DNA from: Clostridia bacterium
GTDB taxonomy: Bacteria > Bacillota > Clostridia > Christensenellales > Aristaeellaceae
Direction of reading: 5' to 3'
Assembly: GCA_017404985.1 (NCBI GenBank)
Contig: JAFRBK010000019.1
Location: 1 to 64,000, forward strand
DNA: 64,000 nucleotides
A program made the translations under genes and the position numbers. Below are positions 59,284-64,000 of this stretch, one piece after another. Positions within the stretch are counted from its first letter, which is position 1, and every line of letters begins with the position of its first letter. The notes below the pieces were generated by a model. The model saw only the letters and a program-made list of their open reading frames with translations. It was not told the origin of the DNA and did not search any database.

Positions 59284-59363
59284 GCTAAAATTTGGAGATT
59301 TTTTTGCTTTTCATTTTCATTTTCAAAAGCGCCCCGGTTCATGCCGAACCGGAGCGTTTTGTT

Positions 59364-60026
59364 TTAAATGCTGTATTCAGCGCCGCATTCCTCCGCGAAG
59401 GCTTCCGGATCCAGGAAGCTGAAGTTCCGGTGCAAAAGCTGGTCCCGGCGGTAGGTGACGTTCATGATCTCTTTCCCGTCGGACAGTGCCTGGACCGCAA
59501 CCTCCTCCACCGGGAGGCAGGCAAACAGATCCCGGGCAATCCGGATGCTTACGGCGGCACAGTAGGCCCGGGGCTTTTTCTCCAGGTACTCCGCCTTGGC
59601 GGTAAAGCGGCTTTCCAGCCGTTCCGCGCCGACCGGTTGAATCCTGATATCATCGGCAAACTCGGTCAGTTCGCCCAATGGGTTGCTGATCTTCAATACC
59701 TCGGCATAGGCCTTCAGGTCGCCGGCCAGCACTGCGGCAGCTTTTTCATGGAAGAAACGCCAGAGTCGGGCGTCCGCCAGCCCATCCGAAGGCCTGCTGT
59801 GGCTCAGGGCATCGGTCCAGTCAATAGTTTCATCCGCGGTTTTCCAGAGGTTGCCGATGCCGATCACAGGCTGATCCACCACCACTTTTTTCGGCTTTTC
59901 CTTTTTCGGCTTGGGCTCCGCGGCCACCGGCGCGGTGTCCGTTTTTCCCCACAGGTCGCCTGCGATTTTCCTCAGCTGTTTTGCGATCTCGCTTTCCACG
60001 GGCAGGCTGTTCTTATTCTCTGCCAT
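59364..60026 (-). CDS. Unknown 220-residue protein coupled to the AAA+ ATPase
   Basis: No family recognised. Residues 1-35 are a charged helix (ESEIAKQLRKIAGDLWGK), 36-50 a lysine/proline linker (EPKPKKEKPKKV), and the rest a mixed domain with WRFFHEKAAAVLAGDLKAYAEVLKISNPLGEL and YCAAVSIRIARDLFACLP. No signal peptide or membrane helix, so cytoplasmic. The start overlaps the ATPase stop (TGATG), so the two proteins are almost surely made together; it could be an adaptor or substrate-delivery partner. The closely spaced second N-terminal acidic/basic pattern suggests a tether to another protein. Confidence 0.75.
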   Translation of the reverse strand: MAENKNSLPVESEIAKQLRKIAGDLWGKTDTAPVAAEPKPKKEKPKKVVVDQPVIGIGNLWKTADETIDWTDALSHSRPSDGLADARLWRFFHEKAAAVLAGDLKAYAEVLKISNPLGELTEFADDIRIQPVGAERLESRFTAKAEYLEKKPRAYCAAVSIRIARDLFACLPVEEVAVQALSDGKEIMNVTYRRDQLLHRNFSFLDPEAFAEECGAEYSI

Positions 60027-61918
60027 CAGGCTTCCCCTCCTTCCAGCCGGCAGCGAATGGCCGGCGGATTGGACGCGGTCTCGAAGGTTTCGATCACCAG
60101 GTCGGCATCCTCGATGATTTCATGGTCAAACAGCCAGCGGCTCAGGGGGTTGATCATCAGGCTTTCCACCTGGTTGCCGATACCGCGGCCGCCGTTGCTC
60201 AGGTCGAAGGTGGCGGCTTCCTCCAGGCCGGCGTAAGCATGGTCCTCGATCCGGATCCGGATATTCTTCTGTTCCGCCATGCGTGCGATAATCTTGTTCA
60301 CCTGGCTCTTCAGGATCAGCTTGGCAGCTTCCGGACGGATATAGTCAAACACCACGATATTCTCCCCGATCCGGTTCAGAATCTCCGGGCGGCCCAGTTC
60401 CAGCTTGAAATAGTCCTCGATCGCGCTGCGGACCCTGTCCTGAACCTCTTTGTAGGGCATGTCCATCGTCACATTGGCTTCCCGGTTTCCGAAGGCATCC
60501 TTGACATAGATGCCCAGGTTACTGGTAAAGATGATGATGCATTCGGAGAAGTACACCGTATTCCCCTGCCCGTCCGTCATCCGGCCGTCCTCCAGAATCT
60601 GCAGGAACTTGTCCAGGATGTTGGTATGCGCCTTTTCAATCTCGTCAAACAGCAGGATGCAGAAGGGGTTTTTCTTCACCGCGTTGGTCAGCTGGCCGCC
60701 GGCCTCGTATCCCACGTATCCGGGAGGGGCACCCATCAGCTTCTGGTCACTGTGGCTCTGCCCGAATTCGCTCATGTCAAAGCGGATGCAGGTGCTTTCG
60801 TCGCCGAAGAGCTTCTCCGCCAGCGCTTTGGCTGTTTCGGTTTTGCCGGTACCCGTCGGCCCGGCGTAGAACAGGACGCCTTTTGGCTTTCCGGTATTTG
60901 AGCTGTTGATGCCGTTCATGCCGGTGACGGCGCGCTTGACAACATCCAGCGTCCGCTCGAGGGCGGTGTCCTGCCCCTTGATCCGCTTTTCGAAATCCTG
61001 CTTGGCCGTCTTCAGGCTGCTCAGGCTCAGGGTGGACCAGGGGTTCTCCTTAACACCGTATTTGTACAGGTCCACGATCTTGCACAGGTCGCGGATCGGC
61101 GTCTCCTCGCTTTTGCAGAGCTTGCGCATCTCGTCCAGCTCCGTGAAGGTCATGCCCTCGGTCAGGCCGACGAACTTTTCCTTAATGCGCTCCAGCTCAT
61201 CCGGATGCTCTTCATAGAAGGGCATATCCCGGCGGTAGGCGGTTCCGGAAAAGAACGTGGCAAAGCTGTCTCCGGTCAGGATGCGTTTCCGCTCCTCCCG
61301 GTCCGGGGCTTCCAGCGTAATCGACTTGCAGACGGGATTATGCAGATAGAACCAGGTCGGCAGATCGTTCAGCTTGTTCACCAGCACAATCAGCAGGTTC
61401 TGTTTCTTTCCCTGGACCGTGCGGACCGTCGTGGCGCTCAGTGCGCTCTGCAGCAGAATATTGAAGCTGTTGACATCCTGCTGGTCCATCCGTTCCGGTG
61501 TGGTGATATAACGGCTGGCCATTTCCAGCACCGTGACCGTGGCCGCCATCTGCTGCCCCAGCGCCCGCCGGATGACGTTCGGCGCCGTATTGGCATCGTT
61601 TCCCTTGAATTCGGAAGGGATCGCGCCCTGCTTGATTTCCGTTTCGGTCAGCGCCGCGAAGCGTTCCAGCATGGACGGGTCATAAGGGGAGACAAAGCCC
61701 ACCAGATTGCTGTAGAAAATGACCTGGTCGTATCCGTTGTCCTTGAAATAGGAGTACAGATAAGCGCTCAGGGGAACGATCTCGTTCTGGCCGATGGTTC
61801 CGTCCACCGGGTAGCGATACTGGTCCGACACGTTGCCCTCCATGATCAGAAGGGGCTTGATGCCGCTGAACAGTTCCAGTTCTTTGTGCCATTTGGGAAT
61901 CAGCGGGGCTGCTTTCAT
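60026..61918 (-). CDS. Two-tier AAA+ ATPase: inactive first tier, ClpB-type second tier
   Basis: 630 residues from the ATG at 61918 (GGAAGG upstream). The C-terminal half is a canonical Clp/Hsp100 D2 module: Walker A AGPTGTGKTETAK (Lys359), Walker B ILLFDEIEKAH, IIFTSNLG sensor 1, pore loop GYVGYEAGGQL, arginine finger region RPEILNRI, and a ClpB D2-small domain (NGGRGIGNQVESLMINPLSRWL). The N-terminal about 280 residues look like an AAA+ fold (LLIVLVNKLNDLP; KSITLEAPDREERKRIL) but have no Walker A or B. There is no Clp N-domain and no ClpP-binding IGF loop, so it should remodel rather than degrade. Its partner gene overlaps the stop. Confidence 0.85.
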   Translation of the reverse strand: MKAAPLIPKWHKELELFSGIKPLLIMEGNVSDQYRYPVDGTIGQNEIVPLSAYLYSYFKDNGYDQVIFYSNLVGFVSPYDPSMLERFAALTETEIKQGAIPSEFKGNDANTAPNVIRRALGQQMAATVTVLEMASRYITTPERMDQQDVNSFNILLQSALSATTVRTVQGKKQNLLIVLVNKLNDLPTWFYLHNPVCKSITLEAPDREERKRILTGDSFATFFSGTAYRRDMPFYEEHPDELERIKEKFVGLTEGMTFTELDEMRKLCKSEETPIRDLCKIVDLYKYGVKENPWSTLSLSSLKTAKQDFEKRIKGQDTALERTLDVVKRAVTGMNGINSSNTGKPKGVLFYAGPTGTGKTETAKALAEKLFGDESTCIRFDMSEFGQSHSDQKLMGAPPGYVGYEAGGQLTNAVKKNPFCILLFDEIEKAHTNILDKFLQILEDGRMTDGQGNTVYFSECIIIFTSNLGIYVKDAFGNREANVTMDMPYKEVQDRVRSAIEDYFKLELGRPEILNRIGENIVVFDYIRPEAAKLILKSQVNKIIARMAEQKNIRIRIEDHAYAGLEEAATFDLSNGGRGIGNQVESLMINPLSRWLFDHEIIEDADLVIETFETASNPPAIRCRLEGGEA

Positions 61919-61988
61919 GGGTCTGTGCTTCCTTTCCTTTATTCGTTTCGGATGATGCTTCCGGCATGCATCCGGTTCGTGCTTTCTT

Positions 61989-62699
61989 TTATGCTTCCAG
62001 GTCCTCAAACCGCCGGCACCAGGTATACTTGCTGATGGCGCTTTGCAGGGCATTCGGGCAGTAGGTGCAGAGCAGGTCCCGGATATAGGGCGGAAGAACC
62101 CGGTTGTATTTCACTTCCAGAATGATCTCGTTGTTGTCCAGCGGAGGCACCGTCGGAACATAGGGATTGAACAGATCATGGCTCCCCAGGCCGCTCCTCA
62201 GCTGCTTGTCAAAGGTGATCCGAACTTCCTCCGCCGGATGCAGGTAGGCTTCCCGGACATAATCCACCAGTACCGCCGGCCGCAGCAGGTTGACGGTCAT
62301 CTCCCGGTACACATCGTTCAGAAGGCCGCTCCGGGTGGTTTCAAGCCCGGTGGGGTCGCCGCTCATCAGCTGCTCGCAGAGCAGCTTCGGAATGGACAGG
62401 CTCCTTTTGGAGATCAGGCTGCCGACCTTGGTCTTGCATTCCAGCTTGATGATCTTGTCGCTGAAGTTGTAAATCCGGATCCGGTACTTGTCCCGGTTCT
62501 GCACGCCGTCAATCTTGTCGTACAGGGCCGTGTTGTAAACCGTGTCAAAGTACAGGGACCGGATATGGTATTCATTGAATTCATCCCCGTTCGGATCCCG
62601 CTGCAGCACGGAATCCAGCACACCGCTGAGCACGAAATACTGCATCTCGTTGATAAAGTACTTCAGTTCGTGCCGCAGCGGCAGCGTCGTCATGTTCAT
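61989..62699 (-). CDS. VTC-domain polyphosphate polymerase-like protein
   Basis: 236 residues. Tunnel-fold VTC domain: LRHELKYFINEMQY, IRSLYFDT, RDKYRIRIYNFSD, IKLECKTK, ISKRSLSI, VDYVREAY, IILEVKYNRVLPPYI. The paired Arg/Lys and Glu residues that line the tunnel are kept. The eukaryotic VTC makes polyphosphate; bacterial stand-alone versions are found with DUF4956 and CotH proteins, as here, where they may act in polyphosphate or cell-envelope work. The gene follows DUF4956 by 54 bp and precedes the AAA+ gene by 70 bp. Confidence 0.88.
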   Translation of the reverse strand: MNMTTLPLRHELKYFINEMQYFVLSGVLDSVLQRDPNGDEFNEYHIRSLYFDTVYNTALYDKIDGVQNRDKYRIRIYNFSDKIIKLECKTKVGSLISKRSLSIPKLLCEQLMSGDPTGLETTRSGLLNDVYREMTVNLLRPAVLVDYVREAYLHPAEEVRITFDKQLRSGLGSHDLFNPYVPTVPPLDNNEIILEVKYNRVLPPYIRDLLCTYCPNALQSAISKYTWCRRFEDLEA

Positions 62700-62753
62700 G
62701 CGCCTTCACCCCCTCTCCCGCGCTTTCTGCAGGCTGAATGCGAACCGGCGGAA

Positions 62754-63464
62754 TCAGGCGCCGGCCTCCGTCTGGCAGGCGACCAGCGTCGCGTCGTGCA
62801 CGCCTTCGATGTTCAGCACCGCGCTGACCAGGTCCTGCTTGCTGTCCAGCCGCACTTCGACCGTGATTTCCGCGCCGCTGCGGGTCACGGTTTTGCTCCG
62901 GAGCTTCCGCTGCTTCACGGTGCGGCGCAGCAGCTGGGTGATCTCCTGCTCCGCGTAGTCGTCATAGTGCACTACCAGCAGATAAGCGTTCGGATTGCGG
63001 AATTTGAAGAACGTCATGATCAGCAGGATCAGGCTGATGCCCAGCACCACCGCCAGCGCGTGCACGAAAAGCTCCGCCCCCAGCAGAATGCCCATGGTCA
63101 GGGCCCAGAACATGTAGGCCGTGTCCATCGGGTCCTTAACCGCGGTCCGGAAGCGGACGATGCTCAGCGCGCCGACCATGCCCATGCTCAGGGCAATGTC
63201 GCTCTTGATGCACATGACGACCGGGGTGGTAATCAGCGTCAGCATCATCAGGGTCAGCGCAAAGTTCGGGCTGTACAGGACGCCGCGGTAGCAGCGCTTG
63301 TAGACAAAGGCGATAATCAGGCCGACCACCAGGCCCAATCCGAGGCCGATCAGGATCTTCCAGGGAGTCAGGTTCTGGAACTGGCTCGAGAAATAATCAC
63401 TCAGGCTGGATTCGTTGGTCAGGACGGACTTGAGGCCGTCAGCATAAGCGGTGGAAATAAACAT
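62754..63464 (-). CDS. DUF4956 membrane protein
   Basis: 236 residues from the ATG at 63464 (GGAGG nine bases upstream); a GTG three codons earlier touches the ribosome binding site and is rejected. Four membrane helices follow a short outside segment (ILIGLGLGLVVGLIIAFVYK; LTLMMLTLITTPVVMCI; LSMGMVGALSIVRFRTAVKD; LLGAELFVHALAVVLGISLILLIM), then a cytoplasmic ferredoxin-like C-terminus of about 75 residues. The family signature GMVGALSIVRFRTAVKDP is exact. Function unknown; it co-occurs with VTC and CotH proteins. Confidence 0.9.
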   Translation of the reverse strand: MFISTAYADGLKSVLTNESSLSDYFSSQFQNLTPWKILIGLGLGLVVGLIIAFVYKRCYRGVLYSPNFALTLMMLTLITTPVVMCIKSDIALSMGMVGALSIVRFRTAVKDPMDTAYMFWALTMGILLGAELFVHALAVVLGISLILLIMTFFKFRNPNAYLLVVHYDDYAEQEITQLLRRTVKQRKLRSKTVTRSGAEITVEVRLDSKQDLVSAVLNIEGVHDATLVACQTEAGA

Positions 63465-63516
63465 GATGGGCACCCTCCTTCTCTGTATCGCGGGGAATTC
63501 CGTCAGGCTCCCGGAT

Positions 63517-64000
63517 TTACGGGATCGCTTCCGGCGGCATTTCGGGTTTGGGGCCGAAATATGTGTTCATTTCGGCATCGGTAAGGTCAAAGGCGTTCTG
63601 GGTATATTCCCAGAGCCTGGTGGGCCGGAGCCGGACGACGTTCCGCAGGCGGTCGACGCGCTTTTCCCAGTAACGGTAGGCGCCGTCCACGGTGGTGGGC
63701 ACTTCGGCGATGACCATCGGGTCGTTCTCCTCGCCCCAGCGGGCCCAGTGCAGCTGCATCTCCGGTTTGATCAGGTCCACCATCTCATCCAGCACGGCAA
63801 GCATAAAGTCTGTGGTCAGCTGCTTGAAGAGGTTTCCGTAAATCGTCAGGAACCGGTCCTTGTATTCCGGCACTGACAGCAGCTTCAGGAAGATTGTGTT
63901 GTCAATGCCCTTCTGGCCCATGCCCTTCACTTTGGTATAGCTCTTCGGGCTGTCGAAGGAGGAGGAATACAGGCCGTAGTCCACGTCGTACAGCACCCAT
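63517..64000 (-). CDS. CotH-kinase family protein, C-terminal part (cut by the window edge)
   Basis: At least 161 residues; the frame is open to the last base (WVLYDVDYGLY...). CotH features: the metal-binding LYDVDYGLYSSS (Asp in the DxD region) and the C-terminal LSVPEYKDRFLTIYGNLFKQL, LDEMVDLIKPEMQLHWARWG, RVDRLRNVVRLRP. CotH proteins are secreted or surface protein kinases; this one heads the DUF4956-VTC-AAA+ cluster. The N-terminus is outside the window. Confidence 0.82.
   Translation of the reverse strand, partial: WVLYDVDYGLYSSSFDSPKSYTKVKGMGQKGIDNTIFLKLLSVPEYKDRFLTIYGNLFKQLTTDFMLAVLDEMVDLIKPEMQLHWARWGEENDPMVIAEVPTTVDGAYRYWEKRVDRLRNVVRLRPTRLWEYTQNAFDLTDAEMNTYFGPKPEMPPEAIP

Follow-up and report, generated by a model that had tools for sequence, protein, structure and literature searches.

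The question raised by this locus is whether two adjoining genes work with their upstream neighbours or chiefly with each other. In a stretch of 64,000 nucleotides from a Clostridia bacterium of the Aristaeellaceae (assembly GCA_017404985.1, contig JAFRBK010000019.1), hereafter the window, genes for a CotH-family protein, a DUF4956 protein, a VTC-domain protein, an AAA+ ATPase and a protein of 220 aa, here named X220, lie head to tail in this order of transcription, all on the minus strand. The gaps are 52 bp (CotH/DUF4956), 54 bp (DUF4956/VTC) and 70 bp (VTC/AAA+), and the ATPase stop and the X220 start overlap in the sequence TGATG (60028-60024). This layout, already given in an earlier note on the same DNA, was confirmed by direct reading. 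The note went on to suggest that the five genes might together make up a system for polyphosphate or for an envelope kinase, equipped with an unfoldase of its own. The reading favoured here on balance is a different one, namely that the ATPase and X220 are a one-motor Hsp100 remodeller and its adaptor, and that their probable origin is a module under phospho-regulation, with a possible role in conflict.

The AAA+ ATPase can be assigned from its domains and motifs to the Hsp100/Clp superfamily, as it has a Clp-type D2 domain with Walker A, Walker B and D2-small. Its C-terminal half matches the Pfam models AAA_2 (PF07724; 3.9e-47, 160.8 bits) and ClpB_D2-small (PF10431; 1e-4, 22.7 bits), both above the cut-off. 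Walker A reads GPTGTGKT at residue 353, with Lys359 as the P-loop lysine, Walker B reads LLFDE, and the pore loop is GYVG, in agreement with the intact D2 that had been noted before. The N-terminal half, earlier described as AAA-like but stripped of its Walker motifs, gave no match in a Pfam scan. In a motif scan, Walker A (GxxxxGK[ST]) was absent from the first 300 residues of all 50 sequences, and none of the 17 aligned N-terminal halves shows a DE pair on the presumed Walker B strand when read from the alignment. The predicted structure of the ATPase matches two-tier Clp ATPases, and its first tier is predicted to be an AAA fold resembling nucleotide-binding domain 1 (NBD1), a further feature of the superfamily. 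Since the model alignment begins at the NBD1 position of ClpB and ClpC, the protein has no Clp N-domain. Furthermore, the tripeptide [LIVM]G[FLM] of the IGF/IGL-type ClpP loop does not occur within 40 residues past the TSN-G motif in any of the 47 sequences where TSN-G was found. The intact D2, the AAA-like N-terminal half without Walker motifs, the missing Clp N-domain and the missing ClpP loop had all been named in the earlier note and stood up to examination. The ATPase is not an equivalog of a known Clp protein by the curated NCBIfam score cut-offs, reaching 251.7 of 1232.1 bits for ClpB, 219.6 of 993.15 for ClpA and 212.4 of 884.95 for ClpV.

The relation between the ATPase and X220 was followed through 47 loci with a close ATPase (at least 69% identity), drawn from 59 contig-search loci, the genomes of the window's own family and the window itself; one contig was counted twice (L050 is L069). 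X220 directly follows the ATPase in all 43 loci where the contig continues, while the remaining four are cut off within the ATPase gene by the end of the contig. A close full-length ATPase is encoded in 10 of 80 family genomes, each time with X220 beside it, and among the other 70 only G007 has an X-type protein, there in a genome lacking a close ATPase. With the window genome dropped, the co-occurrence of ATPase and X220 in the family genomes gives 5e-11 in a Fisher test. These counts support the view that the two genes are one inseparable unit. It is most improbable that the pair merely sits in a chance neighbourhood as a decaying leftover with no working relation. Such genes can decay, as a stand-alone remnant of the N-terminal half beside mobilisation genes in G009 (L071) illustrates, but the D2 catalytic residues and several residues of the N-terminal half are invariant in 36 sequences down to 31% identity, and X220 is retained in every one of the 43 loci.

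The link to the VTC-DUF4956-CotH set has a narrower reach. A close clade was defined by an ATPase identity of at least 78% and comprises 28 loci, the window included. All 28 close-clade loci have VTC at most 3 kb from the pair, as against 0 of 19 other loci (18 distinct); three of the latter (L033, L035 and L037) have less than 1.4 kb upstream, which leaves 16 informative loci outside the clade, none of them with VTC at this distance. This absence is informative because 79 of the 80 family genomes have VTC somewhere. Within the family sample, VTC lies on the ATPase's contig and within about 1.4 kb of it in the three genomes of the window's genus, and on a different contig in all seven other genomes with the pair. 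The neighbourhood comparison across relatives that the earlier note had proposed thus bears out the adjacency of the ATPase and X220 and restricts that of VTC to the close lineage.

Inside this lineage, 17 of 27 close relatives have an additional 1.1-2.5 kb of DNA between VTC and the ATPase gene. The junctions CotH/DUF4956, DUF4956/VTC and AAA+/X220 are all short by comparison, at about 340 bp or less. In two examples that were scanned, the extra gene between VTC and the ATPase encodes a PGA_cap (CapA-like) protein or a PIG-L deacetylase (L012 6805-7962; L019 6521-7765). The flanks served as controls. Upstream, the SNF2 gene is kept in 18 of 21 close loci with room; downstream, none of 22 close relatives has a P-type ATPase gene on the same strand at a distance of up to 1.5 kb, although 12 of the 22 have this gene within about 6 kb, nine of them inverted. 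The five-gene block is therefore kept more strictly than both flanks, which would fit a joint function and makes a lineage-specific shared operon plausible.

The five-gene set is lineage-specific, and a joint role in the close clade is conceivable; a general joint system of the pair with VTC, DUF4956 and CotH is not supported. A five-gene system in which the ATPase and X220, as one machine, control either polyphosphate synthesis by VTC or the action of the CotH kinase at the envelope accordingly appears decidedly unlikely. The head-to-tail order, the short gaps, the overlap and the strictly kept block speak for it; the missing VTC outside the close clade and the loosened VTC/AAA+ junction speak against it, as do the Pel loci of other Gram-positives, where VTC, DUF4956 and CotH occur and the ATPase is unmentioned in the available passages of PMC7112168. 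Of the system suggested in the earlier note, the link in the close lineage is real, and its generality was lost, the distant relatives of the ATPase standing in a kinase/PP2C/FHA/radical-SAM setting. This corrects a plausible but over-general reading of the ATPase as a member of a polyphosphate/CotH system.

That VTC, DUF4956 and CotH are a known co-occurring set, as had also been claimed, is borne out by the same Gram-positive Pel loci. Their accessory set resembles the window in its consecutive genes for CotH, a polyphosphate-polymerase-like protein and DUF4956; the window differs in that no PelG was detected in its genome and in that the ATPase and X220 are attached downstream. In Streptococcus intermedius, according to the accessible part of PMC12345266, mutants of SIR_1594 (CotH) and SIR_1592 (a four-transmembrane MgtC/ACT protein) showed changed Pel levels and reduced aggregation. 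SIR_1592 is equated here with the DUF4956 protein by its position; the window's DUF4956 protein has weak MgtC-family matches, below the cut-off. A PelG search gave no match in the window genome (2.98 Mb, 85% complete, akin to rumen and gut Clostridia) nor in 10 of the 11 genomes searched; in the carrier, G033, VTC and PelG are some 2 kb apart. The same part of PMC12345266 reports that the trio was not found outside Pel loci; the window, in contrast, has the three side by side (61989-64000), and its genome yielded no PelG match. In Clostridium perfringens, VTC and CotH genes share one locus, as stated in the accessible text of PMC2879425.

X220 had been described as a partner lacking a recognisable family. 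Pfam indeed finds no match, and hence no N-terminal DUF4236 (PF14020), and PADLOC gives none either. The structural model has a mean predicted local distance difference test score (pLDDT) of 86 and shows a low-confidence N-terminus followed by an alpha/beta domain; fold searches with it returned nothing above background. A relationship emerges from profiles. A profile built from X220 sequences alone detects, in G007, a protein of 340 aa (E 2.5e-37) with DUF4236 at its N-terminus and, in G223, a protein of 280 aa (E 3.3e-38). Nearly the whole of the latter (98% of its length) aligns with a Niallia plasmid protein that bears the annotation DUF4236 domain-containing, and the C-terminal half of the G223 protein matches Geobacillus DUF4236 proteins; the direct match between the Niallia protein and X220 is weak. 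By sequence homology, X220 is thus a stand-alone version of the domain found at the C-terminus of some DUF4236 proteins, which contradicts the earlier description. The G007, G223, Niallia and Geobacillus proteins share this domain with X220 and differ from it by their DUF4236 domain. The G007 protein (G007:C45; L077 9335-10357) comes from the same family as the window.

The wider ATPase family was examined at 23 loci outside the AAA+/X220 clade, in Bacillota, Synergistota, Succinivibrionaceae, Rhizobium, Caballeronia, Geminocystis and on a plasmid of Aristaeella lactis; some belong to the same genus, so these are not 23 independent cases. A recurrent module surrounds these ATPases. An NrdG-like radical S-adenosylmethionine (SAM) gene is present at 20 of the 23 loci, a coiled-coil protein at 16 (three matches weak), an FHA/zinc-ribbon protein at 15, a Ser/Thr kinase at 13 (14 counting the kinase domain of the Rhizobium helicase) and PP2C at 12. 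These tallies are counts rather than tests, because some of the profiles' training sequences came from these very loci and a number of contigs are short; the Pfam assignments and one record annotation are independent of the trained profiles. Two Pfam matches fall just below the cut-off (FHA in G048, PP2C in Succinimonas), and the radical SAM protein matches Pfam Fer4_12, with NCBIfam NrdG below its cut-off. At the Geminocystis locus, none of the module partners is present.

The G223 ATPase is 58% identical over 621 aa and lies beside a kinase, FHA, radical SAM, PP2C and the DUF4236-X protein. In Caballeronia sp. M1242 (L108 7079-18826), a 573-aa DUF4236 protein is followed by the ATPase, a radical SAM protein, a 2101-aa kinase/DUF4011-type helicase and a protein starting MSGPK; this run sits in an unannotated plasmid stretch. 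The 44-kb rumen plasmid of A. lactis (NZ_CP069422.1; L104, L107) carries the whole module with a DUF4011 helicase-nuclease and two kinases, and further a DUF6273 protein, a clpX gene and a DUF4236 protein. In G402 (L093 6173-17781), the kinase/coiled-coil/AAA+/radical SAM/FHA/PP2C module abuts type III-A genes resembling csm3, csm4 and csm5. Reading of a stretch in G231, a member of the same genus, brought none of these to notice, though no profile scan was made there. Downstream of the module kinase in G048 (L066 15291-19068) lie a HerA-like ATPase and a HESLH-motif protein, possibly further members. Searches of openly licensed PMC papers returned no description of the module; the nearest, PMC7159879, did not show this set in the part available. 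A search on DUF4236 gave one unrelated paper, and those on Dodola and on possible Pseudomonas aeruginosa homologues contributed nothing further.

The window pair shares the full-length ATPase family with this module (G223, G402, the A. lactis plasmid, Succinimonas, Synergistota) and, once, the X domain. It differs in its surroundings, for within 3 kb of the pair no kinase, PP2C, FHA or radical SAM gene was found in 46 of 47 loci; the exception is L013, with a single weak match to radical SAM on the opposite strand. In a search of 10 genomes with the pair, the module radical SAM protein was not found (best E 1e-37 vs below 1e-77 in two carriers searched). In the tree, the 32 AAA+/X220 rows form one clade (100/100), which together with G223 and the Succinivibrionaceae modules makes a 36-row group (100/99) without a clear order among the three. 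Loss of the module genes around the pair is the simplest reading of this unrooted tree.

Besides the strictly kept five-gene block, several results weigh against the reading of the pair as a reduced remodeller and adaptor. The structural alignment to two-tier Clp proteins has a root-mean-square deviation of about 10 Å over both tiers, a whole-chain model having been used, and the profile of the N-terminal half found nothing when compared with one ClpC NBD1 profile. The X domain occurs at one of the 23 module loci (G223); it was also looked for, with no match, in the DUF4236 proteins from Caballeronia and A. lactis. In the phylum sample, with the window genome dropped, the X domain accompanies the ATPase in 1 of 12 genomes against 2 of 385 others, which is not significant (p 0.09). 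Long-branch joins were flagged, including G223/Succinivibrionaceae and L098/36-row group. As the tree is also unrooted, reduction from the module, rather than assembly around a simple pair, is unproven.

A role of the module in conflict or defence is suggested by its patchiness, its plasmid records and its partners; for the window pair the suggestion is weaker still. The family of the N-terminal half occurs in 13 of 398 phylum genomes, the window's own included, and relatives of the ATPase occur in 18 of 72,556 plasmid records, with 24-46% identity in the ten listed. DUF4011-type helicases are found at three module loci (A. lactis, Rhizobium and Caballeronia), and the two scanned, those of A. 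lactis and Rhizobium with a restriction endonuclease domain, match the PADLOC candidate PDC-S37 and Hhe. A Pseudomonas aeruginosa defence hotspot holds a DUF4011 gene and a radical SAM gene, according to the available part of PMC10250203, and these may be related to the module.

Such data invite the explanation that the pair itself is a minimal anti-phage or conflict system, akin to two-gene ClpB-like defence, in which the ATPase as effector or sensor works with X220 and without the kinase module. The distribution over 10 of 80 family genomes, the plasmid records, the csm-like neighbours in G402, the helicase partners and the scores of the window ATPase against DolB and PDC-M37B are in its favour. 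This explanation is nevertheless unlikely: the DolB and PDC-M37B matches are confined to the shared Clp D2 part, X220 has no PADLOC match, the N-terminal half has none in 50,697 phage records, and in all three genomes of the window's genus the pair is chromosome-type, beside ribosomal and VTC genes. The Dodola system consists of DolA and the ClpB-like DolB. It resembles the pair in combining a small protein with a ClpB-like ATPase, and its DolB model scores 75.6 bits on the D2 part; X220, however, gave no sign of being the DolA partner (DUF6414), as it matched nothing in PADLOC or Pfam. The defence-linked Ser/Thr kinase, PP2C and FHA signalling of the kinase-kinase-phosphatase (KKP) system resembles the module of the ATPase relatives (PMC11341870, as far as accessible). 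The terms 'AAA' and 'radical SAM' are absent from that text, and the window pair has no adjoining kinase or phosphatase.

For the favoured remodeller and adaptor, the following course can be proposed. The ATPase would form an Hsp100-type ring in which the D2 tier alone burns ATP and draws polypeptide through the GYVG pore loop, while the dead NBD1-like tier may act as scaffold and docking platform. Because the ClpP loop is missing, the ring would remodel its substrates rather than feed a protease. X220 would dock on the dead tier as an adaptor or substrate-selection subunit, a role proposed because of its invariant adjacency and the stop-start overlap. The pair probably descends from, or shares an ancestor with, the larger kinase/PP2C/FHA/coiled-coil/radical-SAM module, sometimes with a DUF4236 protein, and in the window lineage it would have become linked to a separate VTC-DUF4956-CotH set. 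ClpB, ClpC, ClpA and ClpV share with the ATPase the Clp-type D2 with Walker A/B, the GYVG pore loop, D2-small and, in the predicted structure, the overall two-tier build. The window protein, with 630 aa, differs in its first tier without Walker motifs and in having neither an N-domain nor a ClpP-type loop. An Hsp100 with a conserved first ring lacking nucleotide-binding motifs is a natural test of the non-hydrolytic role of the first tier. The ties of X220 to DUF4236 and of the ATPase to kinase, PP2C, FHA and radical SAM give two uncharacterised families a shared, testable partner. A bolder picture, tentative and rather doubtful, takes the ATPase family as a broad, undescribed phospho-regulated module. 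In it, a half-dead Hsp100 ring would be switched by a Ser/Thr kinase, PP2C and an FHA reader, with an NrdG-like radical SAM protein and DUF4236/X adaptors, in some species driving a DUF4011 helicase-nuclease against phage or plasmid; the window pair would be the most reduced version still extant, with a new connection to an operon for polyphosphate and CotH at the envelope.

Features of the window at and around the AAA+/X220 pair
Feature	Position	Strand	Remarks
CotH-family gene, 3' end	63517..64000	-	stop 63517; last 160 codons inside the window; Pfam match 3.9e-9 on the fragment
DUF4956 protein, 236 aa from ATG	62754..63464	-	PF16316, 7.1e-13; ATG 63464, stop 62754
VTC-domain protein, 236 aa, polyphosphate-polymerase-like	61989..62699	-	PF09359, 1.1e-33
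AAA+ ATPase, 630 aa	60026..61918	-	predicted degenerate NBD1-like tier ~5-290; intact Clp-type D2 ~298-625
AAA+ N-terminal half	61025..61918	-	AAA-like, without Walker A or B; motifs LILEGNVxD and NKxNDLPxW...NP conserved
X220, 220 aa	59364..60026	-	low-confidence N-terminus and alpha/beta domain common to some DUF4236 protein C-termini
Terminator-like hairpin directly past X220	59334..59352	.	flagged on the plus strand only; weak
tRNA-Thr	59230-59155		downstream of X220

The CotH gene belongs to the cluster as had been claimed, with the correction that it runs out of the window; the whole open reading frame has 1067 aa (L004 3518-6721, contig G000:C51). The truncated ATPase copy in G009 (L071 8912-10051) comprises only the N-terminal half, ends in unrelated sequence and lies beside MobA/MobL and other plasmid-type genes. 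The hairpin past X220 is weak, as nine terminator-like sites were found vs 5.9 expected in shuffles. Upstream of CotH lie genes for an SNF2-type helicase and the ribosomal proteins L1 and L11, named by eye, and the downstream flank holds the tRNA-Thr gene and a P-type ATPase gene.

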